A DNA stretch of 64,000 bases from Leptotrichia sp. oral taxon 847. Lineage in GTDB: Bacteria > Fusobacteriota > Fusobacteriia > Fusobacteriales > Leptotrichiaceae. The stretch's first letter is position 1. Every line of letters starts with the position of its first letter. A program made the position numbers and the translations under genes. Below, piece after piece: positions 46,055 through 57,612 of the stretch. The stretch covers positions 1,736,001 to 1,800,000 of the forward strand of contig NZ_CP014231.1 in assembly GCF_001553645.1 (NCBI RefSeq), in the 5' to 3' direction. The notes under the pieces are model-generated. The model had not been told where the DNA came from and ran no database searches. It was given only the letters and a program-made list of their open reading frames with translations.

Positions 46055-48748
46055 ATGGCACAGACACCGCTGATGAAGCAATATAGAGAGATTAAACAAA
46101 ATTTTCGTGACTGTATATTGTTTTTTAGACTAGGTGATTTTTATGAGATGTTTTTTGAAGATGCGCTTACGGCTTCAAAAGAGCTGGGACTAACGCTTAC
46201 TTCAAGAAATAGGGAAAAGGGGATGGATGTACCATTAGCTGGAATTCCGTTTCACTCGGCAAATTCATATATTTCTAAGATGGTTGCAAAAGGTTATAAA
46301 GTTGCGATTTGTGAACAAGTGGAAGATCCTAAAACGGCAAAAGGAATTGTAAAACGGGAAGTTGTCAACATTATAACGCCAGGAACAGTTATGGACATCG
46401 AATCTTTGGACGAAAAAAGTAATAATTATTTGATGAGTATATTGGAAGAAAATAATAAAATCGGGATTTCATATATTGATATAACAACTGGGGAATTTAA
46501 AGTTGCTGAGATTGAAAAAGATAAACATTATATAAAATTATTTAATGAGCTTAATAAAATTGAGCCTAAAGAGATTTTATTAACGGAAGAATTTTACAGA
46601 GTTATAAAAGAAAAAATGGATGATTTTACGAAAAAAAATGATTCTCTTGTAACTTTTGCGACAAAAGTTAGGGATAGTGAAAAGTTTTTAACTGATTATT
46701 TTAAAGTCGTATCTCTTGAAAGTTATGGGATAAAAAATAAAAAAGTTATTATAAATTCAGCTGCAATGGCGCTTGACTATGTGATGGAAATGCAGGTTGG
46801 AAGTGAGCTTACAGTTGAAAAAATGGAATTTATAAATATTTCAAATTATGCAGAAATTAATTCAATTACGCAAAAAAATTTGGAACTTATAAAAAATCAG
46901 CGAGAAAAGACTGTTTATGGCTCACTTTTATGGGTACTGGATAAATGTAAAACTTCTATGGGGACAAGGCTTTTAAAAAAATTCATAAATAATCCGCTTC
47001 TTTCGGCAGAAAAAATCGAGAAAAGACAAAATGATGTGGAATGTTTTTTGGAAAATATTTTACTAAGAGAAGATTTACGGGAAATTTTGGAAGAAGTTTA
47101 TGATTTAGAGCGGCTAGTTGGAAAAATAATTTTTGGAAATGAAAATGGAAGAGATTTGGTGGCACTGAAAAAGACAATAAAATCATCGCTTGAAATTATG
47201 AATTTACTAAAAGAATATGATTTTTTTAATGAAATAGATTCAAAAAAACTTTCTGAAATTTTTCAAATAATTGAAGAGAGCATAAATGAAGATGCACCGT
47301 TTTCTGTGCGGGAAGGAAATATTATAAAAAGAGGCTTTAATCGTGAACTTGACGAAATTAGAAATATCATGAACTCTGGAAAAGATTTTCTTTTGGAAAT
47401 TGAAAAACGGGAAAAAGAAAAAACTGGAATAAAAAATATGAAGATAAAGTACAATAAAGTGTTCGGTTATTTTATCGAAATTACAAAGTCAAATCTAGAT
47501 TTGGTTCCAGAAAGTTATATTAGAAAGCAAACTCTTACAAATTCAGAAAGATTCGTAACCCCAGAACTCAAAAAATATGAAGATACGATTATTAATGCAA
47601 AAGCTAAAATTGAAGATTTGGAATATCATCTCTTTAAGGAAATTAGTGGTAAGATTAAAGAAAAAAGGCATATTTTGGCAAGACTTTCAGAAATACTTTC
47701 TTATCTTGATGTAGTTGTATCTTTTGCGGTAGTTGCAACTGAAAATAATTATGTAAGACCTCAAATTTGTGAAGATTATGATTTTGAAATAATTGGTGGA
47801 CGTCATCCAGTTGTGGAAAAACTTATTGGTAGAAATGACTACGTTGCAAATGACACTTTTTTAAGTGAAATGGAGAGCTTTGTAATTTTGACAGGTCCTA
47901 ATATGTCAGGAAAATCAACTTATATGAAACAAATTGCACTAATTTCAATAATGGCTCAGATTGGCTCATTCGTCCCAGCTAAGAGTGCAAAACTTTCAAT
48001 TGTGGATAAATATCTGACTCGAATTGGTGCATCAGACGATATTTTATCTGGGCAAAGTACGTTTATGGTGGAAATGAGTGAAGTTTCAAATATTTTGAAT
48101 AATGCGACAAAAAATAGCCTTGTAATTTTGGATGAAGTAGGAAGAGGAACTTCCACTTTTGACGGGATTTCAATTGCCACAGCGATATCAATTTATATTC
48201 ACGATAAGATTGGCGCAAAAACTGTTTTTGCAACACATTATCACGAACTAACTGATCTTGCGTCCAAATTTAAAAATATAAAAAATTATCGGATTGAAGT
48301 TGATGAAAAAGATGGAAAAGTTATGTTTTTACGAAATATTGTAAAAGGTGGAGCTGATAAGTCATATGGAATTGAAGTGGCAAGACTTGCGGGGCTTCCT
48401 AAAGAAATTTTGAGCGAAGGGAAAAAACTTTTGAAGAGACTGGAGCAAAAAAAGGAGCTTATAGAAAAGACGATAGATGTAAAACAACTGTCGCTTTTTT
48501 CTATGAATGGGGAAATTGATGAAGTCGGTGAAGAAACTTGTGAGTTTGAGAAAAAATCAGAAATAGAAAATGATTTTTATGAAGAAAAAATTAGTGAAAT
48601 AAAAAAAGAAAAAGAAAACATCGAAAGAGAAAAGGAAAATTTACAAAAAATTGTTTTTAATATTAAAAATTATGATGTAGATAATGTAACTCCGATGGAA
48701 GCAATGAAGTTTCTGTTTGAATTAAAAGAAAAAATAAAAAATAATTAG
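46055..48748 (+). CDS. mutS: DNA mismatch repair protein
   Basis: The 897-residue protein carries the mismatch-wedge FYE motif (FFRLGDFYEMFF, residues about 27-34), Walker A TGPNMSGKSTYM (about 612), Walker B VILDEVGRGTSTFDG, and the HYHEL motif. The length is slightly long because of a charged C-terminal tail. It begins 71 bases after the ArsC-like gene and is followed after 9 bases by the LptC/LptA-like gene. Confidence 0.95.
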   Translation: MAQTPLMKQYREIKQNFRDCILFFRLGDFYEMFFEDALTASKELGLTLTSRNREKGMDVPLAGIPFHSANSYISKMVAKGYKVAICEQVEDPKTAKGIVKREVVNIITPGTVMDIESLDEKSNNYLMSILEENNKIGISYIDITTGEFKVAEIEKDKHYIKLFNELNKIEPKEILLTEEFYRVIKEKMDDFTKKNDSLVTFATKVRDSEKFLTDYFKVVSLESYGIKNKKVIINSAAMALDYVMEMQVGSELTVEKMEFINISNYAEINSITQKNLELIKNQREKTVYGSLLWVLDKCKTSMGTRLLKKFINNPLLSAEKIEKRQNDVECFLENILLREDLREILEEVYDLERLVGKIIFGNENGRDLVALKKTIKSSLEIMNLLKEYDFFNEIDSKKLSEIFQIIEESINEDAPFSVREGNIIKRGFNRELDEIRNIMNSGKDFLLEIEKREKEKTGIKNMKIKYNKVFGYFIEITKSNLDLVPESYIRKQTLTNSERFVTPELKKYEDTIINAKAKIEDLEYHLFKEISGKIKEKRHILARLSEILSYLDVVVSFAVVATENNYVRPQICEDYDFEIIGGRHPVVEKLIGRNDYVANDTFLSEMESFVILTGPNMSGKSTYMKQIALISIMAQIGSFVPAKSAKLSIVDKYLTRIGASDDILSGQSTFMVEMSEVSNILNNATKNSLVILDEVGRGTSTFDGISIATAISIYIHDKIGAKTVFATHYHELTDLASKFKNIKNYRIEVDEKDGKVMFLRNIVKGGADKSYGIEVARLAGLPKEILSEGKKLLKRLEQKKELIEKTIDVKQLSLFSMNGEIDEVGEETCEFEKKSEIENDFYEEKISEIKKEKENIEREKENLQKIVFNIKNYDVDNVTPMEAMKFLFELKEKIKNN

Positions 48749-48757
48749 GAGAAAAAA

Positions 48758-51205
48758 ATGTGGAAAAAAATAATTTATGGAGTGTTGCTTTTAATATTGT
48801 TATACTTTATATATGCCGTATTTTTTAAAAAAATTCCATCTCCATTAGAACAGATGCAAAAAGATATGAAAGCTAAAAAAGTTGTGTATAGATTAAAAGA
48901 TGAAGTAATAGTCTATGCCGATGAGCAGATAGGTTCTGAAGGTGATGAAGTTGTAAGATTTAAAAAAGTTATAATTGATTTGGTTAAGAAAAAAATGCTT
49001 ATTTCTGGAAAAGAGGGAGAAGTAAATACAAAGACGTATGATGCGCTTTTGACTGGAAAAGTCGTGGGAGCGACAAAGGATAAAAAGTGGGAAATTTATA
49101 CCGAGCGGGCAGAATATAAAAAACAAGGTGACAAGTTGATTTCTCCAGTTCGGACAAAACTTATAAATAATGTAGATAAAACAGTTTCTGAAGCGGATAA
49201 AGTCGAAACAACAACAACTTTTCAGGATATAGTTGCAACAGGACATGTAAGTTATGTAAACAACAAGGATAAAAAGAAAATGACTACGGATAAAATGACT
49301 TATAATGATCCGACAAAAGTGAGTCTTGCTGAAGGACATGTCGTTTATACGGAAGAAAAGACAAAAAGAGTGCTAGCAGCTGACAAAATGCGATATGACC
49401 AGCTTAACCAAATAGGAAATGCTGAAGGACATGTACATTATAAAGACCCAGAAAATAAATTGGACGCCCAAAAGGCGGACTACTATATGAAAGATGACGA
49501 GAATGAAAGAGTTGAAGGCTTTGGAAACGTAGTTTATACAGGAAAAGAAAGTGTAATCAAAGCAGATACAGCTGTGTATTTTATCAAGAAAAAACAAATT
49601 AATGGAAATGGACACGTCGTTTACACAGGGAAAGAAAGTGTCGTTACAGCAGATAGTGCTGTATATTTTGTCGATAAAAAGCAAGTTGATGGGAGAGGGC
49701 ATGTTGTTTATACGGGAAAAACTATGATAATTACAGGAGATCATGTATTTTATGACAAAGTTGCTCAAATAATAAACGGTGACGGAAACGGAACTTACAA
49801 TTATTTACCACGAAAAACAACAGGGACCTACAGAAGTGGAGTTTATGATCTAAAAACGCATACTATGACGACAAACGACTACTATACAGCAAATTACGAT
49901 GATTATAAAATGGATGGAACAGGACTTGTTTACGTCTTCCCAACAGGGGCTGCCACAATGAATGGACCTTTTAATGTAAGAAAGCAAAATTTTGCAGTTC
50001 ACGGAGAAAATGGTACGATGAATACGATTTCAAAAGATATTTTTGCAAATAAAATGGTTATGACAAGTGTTCAAGGAGATAGAATTTCTGCGGATAAAGG
50101 TCAGGGAAGTTTTGAGAAAAAGGAATTTAGGTTTGACGGACACGTAACTGGTAAAATTCGTGGAAATGTAAAAGATTTGGCAAATGATCCAAGACCGCTT
50201 GTGGAATCAGAAGCTGTACATTTTAGAGGAAATACTGCAAAAATTTATTTTGTTAAACATAAAAAAGGAAATAATATGAGTATCACCCGTACTGAAATCA
50301 AAGAAAATGTTCATATGACCTATAAAGAAATTACGCTTGATTCACAGTACAACGAAATGGATTCATTAAGAAACTTAATTCTTGCAAGAGATAAAGTAAT
50401 GGTTGATTTTAAAAACAATACAAAAATGACTGCAAATTATTTGTATATGGATATGAATAAACAAGAAGGATACGCCAGAAACAACGTTAAAATTGTAAGT
50501 ACGCTTCCACAGTTTAAAACAATAAATACAAGTGCCGATAAAGCGACAATTTATTTGAAAGACAAAAAAATAAAATTAAACGGACATGTCGTAACTTATC
50601 AAGGAAAGACGATAATTTCTTCGAAAGAGGCAATGTATGATATAAGAAACAGGGTACTTGAAAATTATGGAAATATCCAGATGCAGTATGATGTAAATAA
50701 TGGTGGCTATGAGCAAAATAAATCAGATCCCAAAAATGTTGCAGCAGTGCAAGAGGTTATAAATAGATTGGCAGTTAACGAGCAAAATGGAAAGGCAGTT
50801 TTACCAAAAGCAATGACGGCTTCAAATGGAGTGCCTGTATCGATAAGATGGAAATCATCAAATTCGGCACTGATGTCGGTCAGTGGAAAAATGAACAAAT
50901 CATTTTATGGCGGAAAGGCTAAAGAAGTTGCAATTAATGCCAAAGCAAAAGCGGGAACTGATACAGCTGAAAAAAACTTCAATAAGTCGGTACCATCTGA
51001 AAGCACAAAAGAAATGTTATCACGTGCAGCGGACAACATCTATTTTCCAGAAACTGGAGAAAATTTACCGTCGACAGTGAAAATAAATGTTCATAAAAAA
51101 GCAATAGATGTGCCAGTAAAATGGTCTAAGAAAGGTAACAAGCATACTGCAACGTTAGATTATGACGGAGTTCAATATGAAAAAGATTTTGAGAAAGGAG
51201 AATAA
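48758..51205 (+). CDS. Giant LptC/LptA-like protein with many OstA repeats and C-terminal Ig-like part
   Basis: The 815-residue protein begins with a membrane anchor (residues 5-26) and a short positively charged segment, like LptC. Residues about 60-640 are a long array of OstA/LptA-type beta-jellyroll units, seen as recurring GHVVYT, GDGNGTY and GHVTGK turns. Three tandem 29-residue repeats encoded by 87 bases each lie at 49523-49783. Residues about 655-730 (KAVLPKAMTASNGVPVSIRWKSSN) look like an atrophied bacterial Ig domain, and a second similar piece follows to 815. It sits directly after mutS, about 5.7 kb upstream of lptB. I infer an LPS-transport bridge; function not proved. Confidence 0.75.
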   Translation: MWKKIIYGVLLLILLYFIYAVFFKKIPSPLEQMQKDMKAKKVVYRLKDEVIVYADEQIGSEGDEVVRFKKVIIDLVKKKMLISGKEGEVNTKTYDALLTGKVVGATKDKKWEIYTERAEYKKQGDKLISPVRTKLINNVDKTVSEADKVETTTTFQDIVATGHVSYVNNKDKKKMTTDKMTYNDPTKVSLAEGHVVYTEEKTKRVLAADKMRYDQLNQIGNAEGHVHYKDPENKLDAQKADYYMKDDENERVEGFGNVVYTGKESVIKADTAVYFIKKKQINGNGHVVYTGKESVVTADSAVYFVDKKQVDGRGHVVYTGKTMIITGDHVFYDKVAQIINGDGNGTYNYLPRKTTGTYRSGVYDLKTHTMTTNDYYTANYDDYKMDGTGLVYVFPTGAATMNGPFNVRKQNFAVHGENGTMNTISKDIFANKMVMTSVQGDRISADKGQGSFEKKEFRFDGHVTGKIRGNVKDLANDPRPLVESEAVHFRGNTAKIYFVKHKKGNNMSITRTEIKENVHMTYKEITLDSQYNEMDSLRNLILARDKVMVDFKNNTKMTANYLYMDMNKQEGYARNNVKIVSTLPQFKTINTSADKATIYLKDKKIKLNGHVVTYQGKTIISSKEAMYDIRNRVLENYGNIQMQYDVNNGGYEQNKSDPKNVAAVQEVINRLAVNEQNGKAVLPKAMTASNGVPVSIRWKSSNSALMSVSGKMNKSFYGGKAKEVAINAKAKAGTDTAEKNFNKSVPSESTKEMLSRAADNIYFPETGENLPSTVKINVHKKAIDVPVKWSKKGNKHTATLDYDGVQYEKDFEKGE
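49523..49783 (+). repeat. Three 87-base tandem repeats inside the Lpt-like gene
   Basis: Units start at 49523, 49610 and 49697, each 87 bases (29 codons) long, encoding (N/H)VVYTGKxxxIxADxAVYFxxKKQxxGxG variants. The units differ at silent positions more than at the protein level, which suggests an old, selected repeat rather than a recent copy. Confidence 0.75.
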
Positions 51206-51309
51206 TTTGATTCATTAAAAAAAATAAAAATAGTTTTTTATAGTATGTTAAAATTTATAAAAACACAAAAGACAAAGTTGAAATGTTAATTAGAGAAAGG
51301 AGATACAAA

Positions 51310-54300
51310 ATGGTAAAATTTATAGTTAGGGGGTTACTCTTAATTTGTATAAGTTTTTCATTAATGGCTGAAAATGTAGAAAATGTAACATCTTCGGCAA
51401 ATGAAATAAAAAACAGTAGCGAGATATTGTTAAACTGTTCAAATGTGGCACAAGGGAGTGTACAGGGAATCGGAACGTCCCTAAATAATGGAAATAACAT
51501 ATTTTTAAAATGTTTAAATTATGAAAATAACAGTGAAAATTTGAATAGAACAAATAAAGTTAATTCCAAAGATATATTATTAGAATGTTTAAACACAAGT
51601 GAAAATACGACAGGTGAAGCAGGGAAAAGTGAAAATTCCAATGAAAAGATATTGAAGTGTTCAAACCTAGTTAGGATAATTAATGCAAATGAATTGCTTC
51701 AAATGGGTAACATTGGAAGTATTAATGGAGTACAGCTCAAATGTACAAATACGGTAAAAAATGTAAATAAAACTGAAATACCATTATTAGACACCGGAGG
51801 TACAAATGACATAATATTAAAATGTTCTAGTGTATCTGAAGAAAGTACGTCTGAAAATCTGGCAAAAAATGAAACAGCAATAAACAATAGTGGAACAGTA
51901 AATTCTAATGAAATAACATTAAAATGTTCAAATATAGTTAGAGTCATTGACGGAAATAAGGTTTTTCCAGACAATCCCGAGAATAATGATGCAGTAATAT
52001 TAAATTGTTCAGATACGACAGTAGCGCCAGTGAACAATGTTGTTGGAACGGTAGGACAATCAGGTGGAAGTACGGGACTGTCAGGAGGAGGTATAGGCGG
52101 AGTATCGCCTGTTGTACCTATTATTGGCGGAGCTGTTCCTGCTGTTGGAGCAATTATTGGTGCGACTAGACATCACGGCGGAGGTGGAGGAGGTAATGGC
52201 ACTTCTAAACCTAAAAAAGGTGGTGGCGGAAACAATAAATTTAAGCCTCAAAAAGGTGGAGATGATAATTCTAACCCTAAAAAACGGAAAAAAGAAGATT
52301 CAAAGATACATAATGTGAGAGGAATTGGAATACAACCTGTTAATCCATTTTGGAGAAGTAATCTTCAAGAAGCAGAAGACTCTTATTCAAAAGCAGCAAG
52401 AGTGGGATTTCAATGGGTAAGAATCACAGCTTCGTGGAATAGAATTCAATCTCAGAAAAATGGAGGATATGACTGGCAGGATATAGATGACGCCGTTGCT
52501 CTTGCAAGAAAATATAACTTGAAAGTTTTAATGCAGATAAGTGGTGCTCCAGAATGGGCAACAGGAGCGGACAGTCTTTCAGCTGCTCAAAAAAATGCAT
52601 TAAATGCAAGAAAAATGTGGGTTGCTTCGTTTGCACCGCTTCCACAGTATAATAATGAGTTCTCAAATTTTGTAAGTGCATTAGTAAAAAGATATGCTCC
52701 AAAGGGAGTAATAGACTATGAATTTTGGAATGAACCAGGAAATCCAGAATTTTGGCATGATACTATTCAAAATCCTAGACCGAATCCTGAACATTATACT
52801 GATTTACTAAAAATAGCGTATACAGCAGCGCATGATGCTCATAATGATGTAAATGTTATGGCGGGTGGAATGACAGTAGGTGCTAGTAATAGCGCAACAG
52901 GATATGTTGGACCTATGGAATTTTTAGAAAGAATGTACGGAGCTGGGGCGAAAGGCTATTTTGATGGTTTGTCGCACCATCCTTACGGAATTTATGCCAG
53001 AACTTTTCGGGATAATGGCTGGGCAAACATGATAGGTGATGTTGTAGCACCTGGAGGAGGAGAAAAAACATTATATCAGATAATGTCAGAACACGGTGAT
53101 GGAAATAAAAAAATATGGATAACAGAAGTGGGAATAGATGCTGCATATCCAGGTGTTGAAGAAACAAAACAAGCTAATGTGATAAGTAAAATTTTAGATC
53201 AATATCAAAAATCAAATATATATGGGCCTCTTATTTTTTATCAGGCAAAAGACAGAAAGCCTTACATTACTTCGGGAATATTAGATAGGGACAGTAATGG
53301 TGATGGATGGCTTGACGTAAATATTGATACAAATGGAGATGGTGTTCCTGATGCGAACATTGATACTGATCATAATGGACGTCCTGATATACTGGATGCA
53401 GCAGATCCTGAAAATTATTTTGGAATTTGGAAATCAGACGGCACTGAAAAAAAAGCAGTGGATGTAATCCGAAGATTCATTAATAATAATCATCCGGCAC
53501 CAGCACCTACTCCAGCTCCACTTACAAATGGATGTGATAGTGCAACTGATGCTTCAGGACAATGGAAGAGTGTAAAATGTTGGGAATTTAAAGACAGAAA
53601 TATTCCTTCTGATTGGGTAAGTAAAAGAATTATCAATCATTTGGGTAGCCATTTGACTTATTTGCCAAGCAGTATCAGTTTAGATGGTGATCACGCAATA
53701 CTTACTACACGACGTCATTGTGTCAACAGAAAAGGTGATCCTTTAACTGATGCAAATGCCACTACAGGTGTATGTCCTGCAGGTAAAGTTACTCAATATT
53801 CAAGTGGTAGACTAGAATCTGGTAATATTGTGGATGCCTCTAAACCGTTCCGTGCAGAAATACGTGCTAAAATGAATTGGAATCATTTGCAAGGAATGCG
53901 TACAGCTCTTTGGATGCAGAAACAGCGAAATGATGTGGATACACCTGCCTGCAAAGTTCCTGGTGGAAATGCTCCTTATGGTTCACTATTGATTTTGGAA
54001 TGGTTTGCGTCTACACCTGATTATGGATGGCCTGCATCTAACATCAGTTGTTATTATAGCCAAACTAATCATGAATGGACTCCTCGTGGATTTACGCATC
54101 GTTTAGAAAACCGTGTTGGTTCGGGTTCTAAACCGTTAACAGATGAATGGCACGTTTGGACAATTGAGTATGATGGAACCAAAGTACGTTATTATATGGA
54201 TGGAAGATTGGCTCCTGTAGTTCATTATCGTATTCAAGATGCTAGACGTATCAGTGTAGTTGACAGTACTCGATACGATCAGTATGGAAGTTATCTTTCA

Positions 54301-54495
54301 ACTATGCCAGATGAAGATTATAGTAAGTTAAATATTCCTTCTTCTTTGGTTAAACAAGGATTCGAAAATGATAGATGGCATTTCATTATTAATGACTATG
54401 TAGAATGGGAACCTGGCTTGAATCCGCCTTCTGACGGAGCTCCATTCCCAGTTCAAACCACAGAGATTGATTATGTGCGTTTGTACCAGAAATAG
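51310..54495 (+). CDS. Secreted multidomain glycosidase-like protein with Cys repeats and a GH16-like domain
   Basis: The 1061-residue protein (start ATG 51310, AAAGGAGA before it) has a signal peptide (KFIVRGLLLICISFSLMA). Next come eight repeats with one cysteine each, of the type 'IxLKCSNxxR', about 25-34 residues apart. A Gly-rich stretch follows (about 250-325). A GH39/GH5-like TIM-barrel lies at about 336-725, with FWNEPGNP (acid/base Glu) and IWITEVGID (nucleophile Glu). Three calcium-type repeats (DSNGDGWLD, DTNGDGVPD, DTDHNGRPD) and a Pro linker lead to a GH16-like domain (741-1061). There the usual EIDxxE motif reads SLLILE, so one catalytic Glu is missing. CGT arginine codons are frequent only in this last domain. 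Confidence 0.75.
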   Translation: MVKFIVRGLLLICISFSLMAENVENVTSSANEIKNSSEILLNCSNVAQGSVQGIGTSLNNGNNIFLKCLNYENNSENLNRTNKVNSKDILLECLNTSENTTGEAGKSENSNEKILKCSNLVRIINANELLQMGNIGSINGVQLKCTNTVKNVNKTEIPLLDTGGTNDIILKCSSVSEESTSENLAKNETAINNSGTVNSNEITLKCSNIVRVIDGNKVFPDNPENNDAVILNCSDTTVAPVNNVVGTVGQSGGSTGLSGGGIGGVSPVVPIIGGAVPAVGAIIGATRHHGGGGGGNGTSKPKKGGGGNNKFKPQKGGDDNSNPKKRKKEDSKIHNVRGIGIQPVNPFWRSNLQEAEDSYSKAARVGFQWVRITASWNRIQSQKNGGYDWQDIDDAVALARKYNLKVLMQISGAPEWATGADSLSAAQKNALNARKMWVASFAPLPQYNNEFSNFVSALVKRYAPKGVIDYEFWNEPGNPEFWHDTIQNPRPNPEHYTDLLKIAYTAAHDAHNDVNVMAGGMTVGASNSATGYVGPMEFLERMYGAGAKGYFDGLSHHPYGIYARTFRDNGWANMIGDVVAPGGGEKTLYQIMSEHGDGNKKIWITEVGIDAAYPGVEETKQANVISKILDQYQKSNIYGPLIFYQAKDRKPYITSGILDRDSNGDGWLDVNIDTNGDGVPDANIDTDHNGRPDILDAADPENYFGIWKSDGTEKKAVDVIRRFINNNHPAPAPTPAPLTNGCDSATDASGQWKSVKCWEFKDRNIPSDWVSKRIINHLGSHLTYLPSSISLDGDHAILTTRRHCVNRKGDPLTDANATTGVCPAGKVTQYSSGRLESGNIVDASKPFRAEIRAKMNWNHLQGMRTALWMQKQRNDVDTPACKVPGGNAPYGSLLILEWFASTPDYGWPASNISCYYSQTNHEWTPRGFTHRLENRVGSGSKPLTDEWHVWTIEYDGTKVRYYMDGRLAPVVHYRIQDARRISVVDSTRYDQYGSYLSTMPDEDYSKLNIPSSLVKQGFENDRWHFIINDYVEWEPGLNPPSDGAPFPVQTTEIDYVRLYQK

Positions 54496-55038: not shown

Positions 55039-56748
55039 ATGAAAAAATTACATATTTTAAGTACAATGATGCTATCAACGATTACGGCAATGGGTCAGGA
55101 AATTAAAATAAATGGGGGTTGGGATTTTGACAGAGCGTATAAAAATGATTTAACTAAACATCAAAAAGGACTTTCTAACACCAATTATGATTATAAATTT
55201 AAAAATGGTCCTGTTGCGGGAATTGAGTGGCTATTTGATAATCAGGGAAGACTCGAATTAGGAATCGGTGCAGAACATAAATTTTCTGTAAAATCTTCAG
55301 CCTTAAAAGATAAAAATGAAATGAGAATGTACGAAATAACACCGATGTATCTGACAGGTAAATATAATTTAATAACTTCTAAAGCTGGAAATGACTTACT
55401 CTATCTTATTGGAAGAGGGGGATATGCTTATGCCAAAGCTGGAAAAGATAATAAAGAAGATTTAAAAGATAAAAATTTTCGTGGTGGACTTTATTATGCA
55501 GGTGGTTTAGGTACTCAAGTTGGACCAATTTCCGTAGAAGCTTTATATGAAAGATCAAATTTACGATACGATAAAGTAAATTTAGGTAATATAAACAGAA
55601 ATAATATAAGTACCCTAAATAATTTTAAAAAGACCAAAGATAATATAAATACAGTTGGTGTAAGAATAGGATACAGTATTGGAAATATTAAAAATTTACC
55701 AAAGAAAAAAAATGATGTTGTGCCTTTTGATCCTTTCAGAACAGATATTTTTGCTAAAACTGGAGATATGCAGTATACTACAGACAAAATTATGAAAAGA
55801 AAGTGGAATGGCGGGGAACTTAGATTAAATGTAGGATATAATTTCAAGGACAGATACAATGTTCATCCAAAGCAATTTTTGGGAACGGGTATGAAAAATA
55901 ATAAATGGCAGTCTGCAAAATCAGATTTTGATGTTAAAGGAATGCCTGTTGTCGGGTTGGAATATTTATTTGATAATCAGGGAGCTGTTGAACTAGGATT
56001 GGGTGTAGAGCAAAGATTCCTTGATATTTCTCCTTTTTTTAACAATAAAGAGGAAAAGCACGTTTTAAGAACTTATCCTGCTTACGCTACAACAAAAATT
56101 AATTTGGTAAATAATAAGGGAAACAATCTGCTTTACGCTGTTGGACGAGTAGGATATGTATATGGTGAAATAAAGGAAGAAAATTTTAATAAAAAGGATC
56201 TTCGTGGTGGGCTTTATTATGCAGGAGGATTAGGTACGGAGTTAGGTCCAATTTCCCTAGAAGCTCTTTATGAAAGATCAAATTTTAAATATGAGCCAAA
56301 AGACACAATTAATCCTATAAAAGTTAAAAGTAAAATTGATACATTCGGCATAAGATTAGGATACAGACTGGGAAGTATCAAGAATAAGCCAAAAATAAAA
56401 GAGGTAAAAACAGCAGCGTATGCTTATAACAGTGTGCCTGAAGAAGACAGAATAAACATAGCTGGTAATTTAAAAGGAAAAAATGACAATATTTTAACTT
56501 CTAGAAGTAGTACTGCAAAAAACAAAAAACATTTTGAAAATGAAATAATAAAAGAAGACGAAGCAACAACCTATAGTTATGATATACCTGAGGAAGATAG
56601 AATAGATATAATTAGTAATCTGAAAGGAAACAATAATGTAGAAAACGTAAAATATTCTGAGGATAAAATAAAAGGAGAAAGTAATAAAACTATATCTGAA
56701 AAGGATGCTATAGATATAATTAGTAATTTGACACCCAATAGACTATAA
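55039..56748 (+). CDS. Outer-membrane protein made of two tandem barrel domains
   Basis: The 569-residue product has a signal peptide (LSTMMLSTITAMG). Residues about 20-215 and 255-450 form two homologous barrel-type domains, for example VAGIEWLFDNQGRLELGIGAE / VVGLEYLFDNQGAVELGLGVE and FRGGLYYAGGLGTQVGP / LRGGLYYAGGLGTELGP. The C-terminus has three short copies of a (P)EEDRIDIISNLKG-like motif (about 468, 516 and 552). The unit looks like small OmpA/OmpX-type barrels fused in one chain. I could not assign a ligand or a family name. Confidence 0.7.
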   Translation: MKKLHILSTMMLSTITAMGQEIKINGGWDFDRAYKNDLTKHQKGLSNTNYDYKFKNGPVAGIEWLFDNQGRLELGIGAEHKFSVKSSALKDKNEMRMYEITPMYLTGKYNLITSKAGNDLLYLIGRGGYAYAKAGKDNKEDLKDKNFRGGLYYAGGLGTQVGPISVEALYERSNLRYDKVNLGNINRNNISTLNNFKKTKDNINTVGVRIGYSIGNIKNLPKKKNDVVPFDPFRTDIFAKTGDMQYTTDKIMKRKWNGGELRLNVGYNFKDRYNVHPKQFLGTGMKNNKWQSAKSDFDVKGMPVVGLEYLFDNQGAVELGLGVEQRFLDISPFFNNKEEKHVLRTYPAYATTKINLVNNKGNNLLYAVGRVGYVYGEIKEENFNKKDLRGGLYYAGGLGTELGPISLEALYERSNFKYEPKDTINPIKVKSKIDTFGIRLGYRLGSIKNKPKIKEVKTAAYAYNSVPEEDRINIAGNLKGKNDNILTSRSSTAKNKKHFENEIIKEDEATTYSYDIPEEDRIDIISNLKGNNNVENVKYSEDKIKGESNKTISEKDAIDIISNLTPNRL

Positions 56749-56877
56749 GTTATGTTTATTTGATTTCTAAAAGTATCCAAGATATGTAAAAAAACATTAA
56801 ATATATGTTGAAAAAGTGCTGAAAACTTCTGGCTTTTTCGACTTTTATAAATGTCAGTTTTTAGAGAGGAGAAAAAA

Positions 56878-57612
56878 ATGGCCAGAAAAATCAGTATAGA
56901 AGCTGATAGTTTAAAAAAAATATATAAAAAGCGAGAAGTTGTTAAAGATGTCAGTCTTGCTATGGAAAAAGGTGAAGTCGTAGGACTTTTAGGACCAAAT
57001 GGTGCAGGAAAAACAACAACGTTTTATATGATTACGGGAATTGTCAGACCAAATTACGGTCGTGTGATGTATAACGGAGAAGAAATTACAAATTTTCCAA
57101 TGTATAAAAGAGCAAGGCTTGGTCTTGGGTATTTGCCACAAGAAGCTTCAGTCTTTAGAAATTTAACAGTTGAAGAAAATATAATTTCGGTTTTAGAGAT
57201 GCGTGGTGTGAACAAGAAAGAAAGAATTGCTACAACGCAAAGTCTTATTGAGGAGTTTAAATTATCACATGTAGCAAACAGTCTGGGTTACGCACTATCA
57301 GGTGGAGAGAGAAGAAGGGTTGAAATTGCTAGAACGATTTCTACAAATCCTGATTTTATATTACTTGATGAACCTTTTGCAGGAGTTGATCCGATTGCAG
57401 TGGAAGACATTCAAAATATAATAATGCAGTTAAAAGAGCGTGGACTTGGAATTTTGATAACTGATCACAATGTGCGTGAAACACTTAGAATCACCGAAAG
57501 AGCGTATATAATGGCAGAAGGAACAATTTTAATTTCGGGTACAAGTAAGCAAATTGCAGAAGATGAAACTGCGAGAAGAGTTTATTTGGGAGATAAATTT
57601 AAGTTGGATTAA
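56878..57612 (+). CDS. lptB: LPS export ABC transporter ATPase
   Basis: The 244-residue ATPase has Walker [20 protein letters not shown] (about residue 34), signature [15 protein letters not shown], Walker [18 protein letters not shown] and the H-loop [21 protein letters not shown], all diagnostic of LptB. The start at 56878 follows AGAGGAG; an in-frame ATG at 56851 is less well placed. It powers LPS extraction by LptFG. The Lpt-like bridge protein is 5.7 kb upstream. Confidence 0.94.

Follow-up and report, generated by a model that had tools for sequence, protein, structure and literature searches.

A probable single-chain LptC-LptA bridge of the LPS exporter, with a length that changes in repeat units, in Leptotrichia and other Fusobacteriota

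The window analysed here, a stretch of 64,000 nucleotides from Leptotrichia sp. oral taxon 847, contains an open reading frame at 48758..51205 (+ strand) that begins with ATG and encodes a product of 815 aa, referred to below as the bridge ORF. Its upstream neighbour is mutS (46055..48748, +). A first-pass annotation, made from the sequence alone, had placed the gene near lptB, which encodes the ATPase of the LPS exporter; lptB does lie downstream (56851..57612, +; TIGR04406, 367 bits with a cut-off of 240), separated from the bridge ORF by two unrelated ORFs. One of these (51283-54495) encodes a glycosidase-like protein of 1070 aa with a cellulase/GH42-like domain and repeated ILKCSN-type motifs near the N-terminus, and is absent from that place in Sebaldella. 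The other (55039-56748), directly before lptB, encodes 569 aa, with two similar halves that each resemble an outer-membrane barrel and with short repeats at the C-terminus. The order mutS, bridge ORF, lptB and an alaS-sized ORF is also found in a Sebaldella MAG (L076).

The protein opens with a predicted transmembrane helix (residues 2-22; 48761..48823, +), a putative inner-membrane anchor identified from its hydrophobic sequence, from an AlphaFold2 (AF2) helix and from alignment phylum-wide. An LptC-like first jellyroll segment follows (residues 30-162; 48845..49243, +), where residues 1-175 match the LptC profile TIGR04409 and length is constant among relatives. This succession of a helix and an LptC-like segment suggests that the anchor is uncleaved, rather than being a cleaved signal peptide. 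Beyond it lie an OstA array of variable length (residues 163-313; 49244..49696, +; LptD_N 1.8e-12), which differs between relatives in steps of ~30 aa as judged from the alignment and from segment lengths, and a conserved jellyroll core (residues 314-644; 49697..50689, +), defined by its constant length in 18/18 homologues, by AF2 and by Foldseek on the second half. A linker and an Ig-like C-terminal domain (50690..51202, +), a possible cap or dock, complete the chain. Here, in a search with the C-terminal fragment, an aBig_2 match (4.8e-7) is followed by a weak Big_4-like one (0.0017), and the Ig-like part covers residues ~656-815.

The first-pass annotation had described an LptC-like anchor, a long array of OstA-type units built of 29-residue repeats, and Ig-like parts. 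The anchor, the array and the Ig-like domain were all recovered, but the strict 29-residue repeat is confined to the middle of the OstA array. There, an 87-bp tandem repeat (29-codon units, 2.3 copies; TRF score 226) occupies 49523..49719 (+), and residues 160-345 have a lag-29 self-similarity of 0.99 against a shuffle 99th percentile of -0.09. Elsewhere the period is that of the strands, ~15 residues, and the sequence has diverged.

Pfam searches of the protein returned LptC (2.1e-8), LptD_N/OstA (2.5e-8, in three stretches) and aBig_2 (1.1e-5). The whole protein scores above the NCBIfam LptC cut-off (LptC_YrbK, TIGR04409; 62.7 bits vs 38), with the strongest stretch at residues 232-339, and under the cut-off of the curated LptA model (TIGR03002; 20.4 bits vs 71.7). 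Residues 1-175 alone match TIGR04409 at 3.3e-5 (23.5 bits, profile positions 4-153 of 180), and the N-termini of 18 of 23 phylum members match the LptC profile, the best at 3.2e-10. Two results were counted against the bridge reading: in isolation, residues 1-175 fall under the LptC cut-off and under Pfam detection, and when the N-terminal alignment was compared by hhalign with E. coli LptC as a single sequence, no match at fold level emerged. As hhalign against E. coli LptC and LptA, each taken as one sequence, was uninformative for LptC, the curated LptC profile was used in its place. Because this direct comparison was unsuccessful, the identification as LptC is built on the family profile, on the anchor and the fold, and on where the gene lies. 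A GH43 arabinanase that appeared as a PDB sequence match was rejected, as only the Ig-like aBig_2 part aligned.

Structure prediction had been proposed as a check for a continuous jellyroll, and the AF2 models bear the proposal out. The full-chain run (8-sequence alignment, mean pLDDT 79.5, pTM 0.52) gave the helix at residues 2-22 and then antiparallel strands every ~15 residues, unbroken from residue 65 to 468. The modelled beta-jellyroll is uninterrupted from ~42 to ~460 and less certain onward to ~643; pLDDT is mostly 85-95 over residues 30-460, and residues ~470-560 are less certain. The small alignment, the pTM and this less certain stretch were also counted against the bridge reading. 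When residues 426-815 were modelled separately (mean pLDDT 78.3), the second half was more confident, with strands up to ~644, then the linker and the Ig-like part. The models thus predict a jellyroll that is continuous over at least residues 42-460 and probably to ~643.

Foldseek searches of the PDB with the whole model returned LptD (1.6e-10), LptC (TMt 0.78) and LptA (2r1a; TMt 0.81, rmsd 1.6-1.9 Å over ~130 residues), and the second half of the model returned LptC (0.82), LptA and LptD. As modelled, the protein has the single N-terminal transmembrane anchor of the LptC family, followed by an OstA jellyroll with strands from residue 42, and this jellyroll has the LptA fold. It departs from the LptC-family expectation of a small one-jellyroll protein (~180-190 aa). 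A simple check for an alternation of hydrophobic residues towards the groove yielded no clear signal, its value being reached by 177/2000 shuffles. In the model the jellyroll has 38 long strands and amounts to ~4.6 LptA lengths by residues. With the standard sheet spacing of 4.8 Å per strand, its length would be an estimated ~180 Å. LptA itself is ~40 Å long (PMC10863985).

Comparison of the 18 Leptotrichiaceae homologues places the variation in length in one part of the chain. Length is constant in the N-terminal part (161-165 aa) and in the core (329-331 aa); the segment between them is 57, 117-119, 150-151 or 178-183 aa, which corresponds to 0, 2, 3 or 4 repeats of ~30 residues. The nearest case, in G013 (89% identical), is longer than the protein in the window by about one unit. 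In the AF2 model each unit is a hairpin of two strands, so that the direction of the strands would stay in register when a unit is added. Since length changes by whole repeat units, the length of the bridge can be read from the gene. All 18 of these homologues carry the C-terminal Ig-like domain, as does a member of at least one further genus (aBig_2 in L112); Pfam did not detect it in three other Fusobacteriota ORFs (L109, L110 and L127), in which the OstA array is the last part of the chain.

The genome is one complete contig of 2,194,935 bp (completeness 100). The loss of a separate LptA had previously been proposed from the window only, and a normal lptA and lptC pair elsewhere in the genome would have spoken against it. 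A search of the complete genome with PF03968, PF06835 and PF13100 (E <= 1) detected neither a separate lptA nor a separate lptC; OstA/LptC domains were confined to the bridge ORF and one LptD-like gene, at 1.093 Mb. A strongly diverged lptA could evade profile searches of this kind. The genome also encodes LptB, LptF and LptG, the last two in tandem 0.8 kb beyond the window end, and LpxC (332.8 bits), so that lipid A synthesis is present. With these and the LptD-like gene, the remaining LPS exporter is present in a genome where separate LptA and LptC went unfound.

The LptD-like gene is split between two ORFs, of 437 aa and 788 aa, whose frames differ (C1:1089997-1093688, - strand; L051:1998-5689), with an A-run near the break, and in relatives such as G010 it is one frame of ~1249 aa. 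The break may reflect a sequencing error, a pseudogene or phase variation; as the outer-membrane end of the system may thus not be intact in this genome, it was counted against the bridge reading. In another Leptotrichia-group genome, G013, lpxC is divided into two ORFs (C1:1022804-1023624).

The architecture is not peculiar to this genome. A search with the alignment of the 18 Leptotrichiaceae homologues matched 81 of 98 Fusobacteriota genomes. OstA and N-terminal profiles added seven (G033, G050, G067, G080, G081, G082 and G084, the last being partial at a contig edge), so that a bridge ORF, whole or in part, is present in at least 88 of the 98; G083, which has OstA matches, was left outside this count. 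Their typical length is 740-930 aa, the extremes being 430-468 and ~1090 aa, and a Fusobacterium homologue has ~890 aa. At most loci in the phylum the gene lies immediately upstream of lptB, with a gap of -19 to 91 nt, and such adjacency includes versions of 742 aa and ~900 aa; the gap is larger or interrupted in several Leptotrichia. The same slot before lptB is held in E. coli by lptC-lptA.

Several genomes within the phylum showed further variation. The bridge ORFs of G064, G067 and G081 (L126, L127 and L118) are those of 430-468 aa; they are about half the usual length and still lie directly before lptB, and they are a natural experiment on bridge length. At least two bridge ORFs (932 aa and 906 aa; L113, L114) occur in a distant Fusobacteriota MAG, G097, which also has a third, apparently frame-broken, in tandem downstream of the first. 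An LptF-LptG fusion in G082 (a 720-aa open frame) proved to be an artefact of two adjacent 358-aa ORFs.

The bridge ORF is missing from nine Leptotrichiaceae genomes of 1.2-1.8 Mb (G001, G018, G019 and G027-G032), and searches for OstA domains, LptF/G and LpxC found none of these in any of the nine. LpxC is present in 23 of the 24 family genomes with the bridge ORF, the exception being a MAG (G004). The losses fall in four genera and are therefore not nine independent events. This co-loss clearly links the bridge ORF to LPS export, and the nine small genomes suggest that LPS has been lost in part of the Leptotrichiaceae.

Together the results make it very probable that the 815-residue protein is a single-chain LptC-LptA bridge of the LPS exporter, as the first-pass annotation had proposed. 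Our best reading is that this form of bridge is widespread in Fusobacteriota and that repeat number sets its length. The helix would fasten the chain in the inner membrane, and the first jellyroll segment would act as LptC on LptB2FG. The remaining jellyroll would stand in for a string of LptA molecules, so that LPS would move along one built-in groove, running from end to end, to the N-terminal jellyroll of LptD. Length would be fixed in the gene by the count of ~30-residue hairpin repeats and not by oligomerisation. In Leptotrichiaceae, the terminal Ig-like domain may block polymerisation or aid docking to LptD.

It is unlikely that the protein is no more than an over-long LptC, with the bridge completed by a separate, strongly diverged LptA or another carrier. 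In favour of this reading, the whole chain passes the NCBIfam LptC cut-off and fails the LptA one, and diverged short beta proteins can escape profile searches. However, the chain already contains several LptA lengths of jellyroll, a third OstA-type gene was not found in the complete genome at E <= 1, and the bridge gene fills both the lptC and the lptA slots before lptB. Furthermore, nearly all of the OstA matches listed for the phylum belong to the bridge class or to LptD-sized ORFs of ~1200-1250 aa, with exceptions that include contig-edge fragments.

A slightly less likely reading again is a single-chain bridge whose cargo is some other lipid and not LPS, an idea put forward for Borrelia, a spirochaete that has no LPS. 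Lpt proteins are kept without LPS in that organism (PMC10353723), and LpxC was not seen in the bridge-bearing MAG G004, though that genome is 88% complete. Against this, LpxC is encoded by the Leptotrichia genome itself and accompanies the bridge throughout the family with that one exception, while it is found in 0/9 of the genomes without a bridge. It is highly improbable that the protein is an Lpt-unrelated, Ig-containing repeat adhesin or surface protein with a chance likeness to OstA repeats. An Ig-like C-terminus, internal repeats and varying copy number would suit an adhesin, as would adjoining ORFs for a glycosidase-like protein and an outer-membrane barrel; against an adhesin stand the matches to LptC, LptA and LptD in both sequence and fold, the linkage to lptB, and the loss together with LptF/G and LpxC.

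If the protein is a single-chain bridge, it bears on two points that have been described as unresolved, the number of LptA copies per bridge and the adaptation of the bridge to periplasm width (PMC10863985, PMC6164715). A one-chain bridge has a fixed and countable length, with a roughly two-fold range in Fusobacteriota and whole-unit steps among close relatives, and bridge length can thus be compared with periplasm width across strains. We tentatively hypothesize, while considering it somewhat doubtful, a genetically encoded ruler. Each ~30-residue hairpin would add ~10 Å, repeat number would co-evolve with the width of the periplasm or set a minimum for it, the Ig-like cap would fix a monomer docked to LptD, and LptA oligomerisation would not occur in these bacteria. 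We also predict that the interfaces between separate proteins, LptC-LptA and LptA-LptA, at which thanatin-type peptides act disruptively in Enterobacteriaceae, would be missing from Fusobacteriota.

The domains and the Lpt system are already known. This protein stands apart in that LptC is merged with an LptA-like array into a single chain, with a separate LptA missing and a length set by repeats. Automatic annotation would probably call it LptC, because its full-length score is above the NCBIfam cut-off for that family. A survey of lpt genes was presented without Fusobacteria in its main tree (PMC8871954). Searches of open-access papers did not turn up any account of a fused bridge from Fusobacteriota; an earlier mention, or cases in other phyla, are possible.

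The bridge shares with E. coli LptC and LptA an N-terminal anchor, the OstA jellyroll fold and a place directly before lptB. In E. coli, however, these are two proteins, LptC of 191 aa and LptA of 185 aa, the latter a soluble protein that forms head-to-tail oligomers, whereas here there is one chain, LptA is undetected and a C-terminal Ig-like domain has been added. Similarly, the Lpt cluster of Negativicutes and Halanaerobiales, also non-proteobacterial diderms, has OstA proteins by lptB and lptF/G (PMC5007114). That cluster encodes two separate OstA proteins of ~200 aa, with LptD undetected, in contrast to one chain and an LptD-like gene in Leptotrichia. Borrelia likewise has a periplasmic beta-taco bridge from LptB2FG to LptD, but with separate LptC (BB0464) and LptA (BB0465) and a non-LPS substrate (PMC10353723). 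The N-terminal domain of LptD, which gave the top fold-search matches, has the OstA jellyroll in common with the bridge. In LptD this jellyroll is followed by an outer-membrane barrel, whereas in the bridge it is preceded by an inner-membrane helix and followed by an Ig-like domain.
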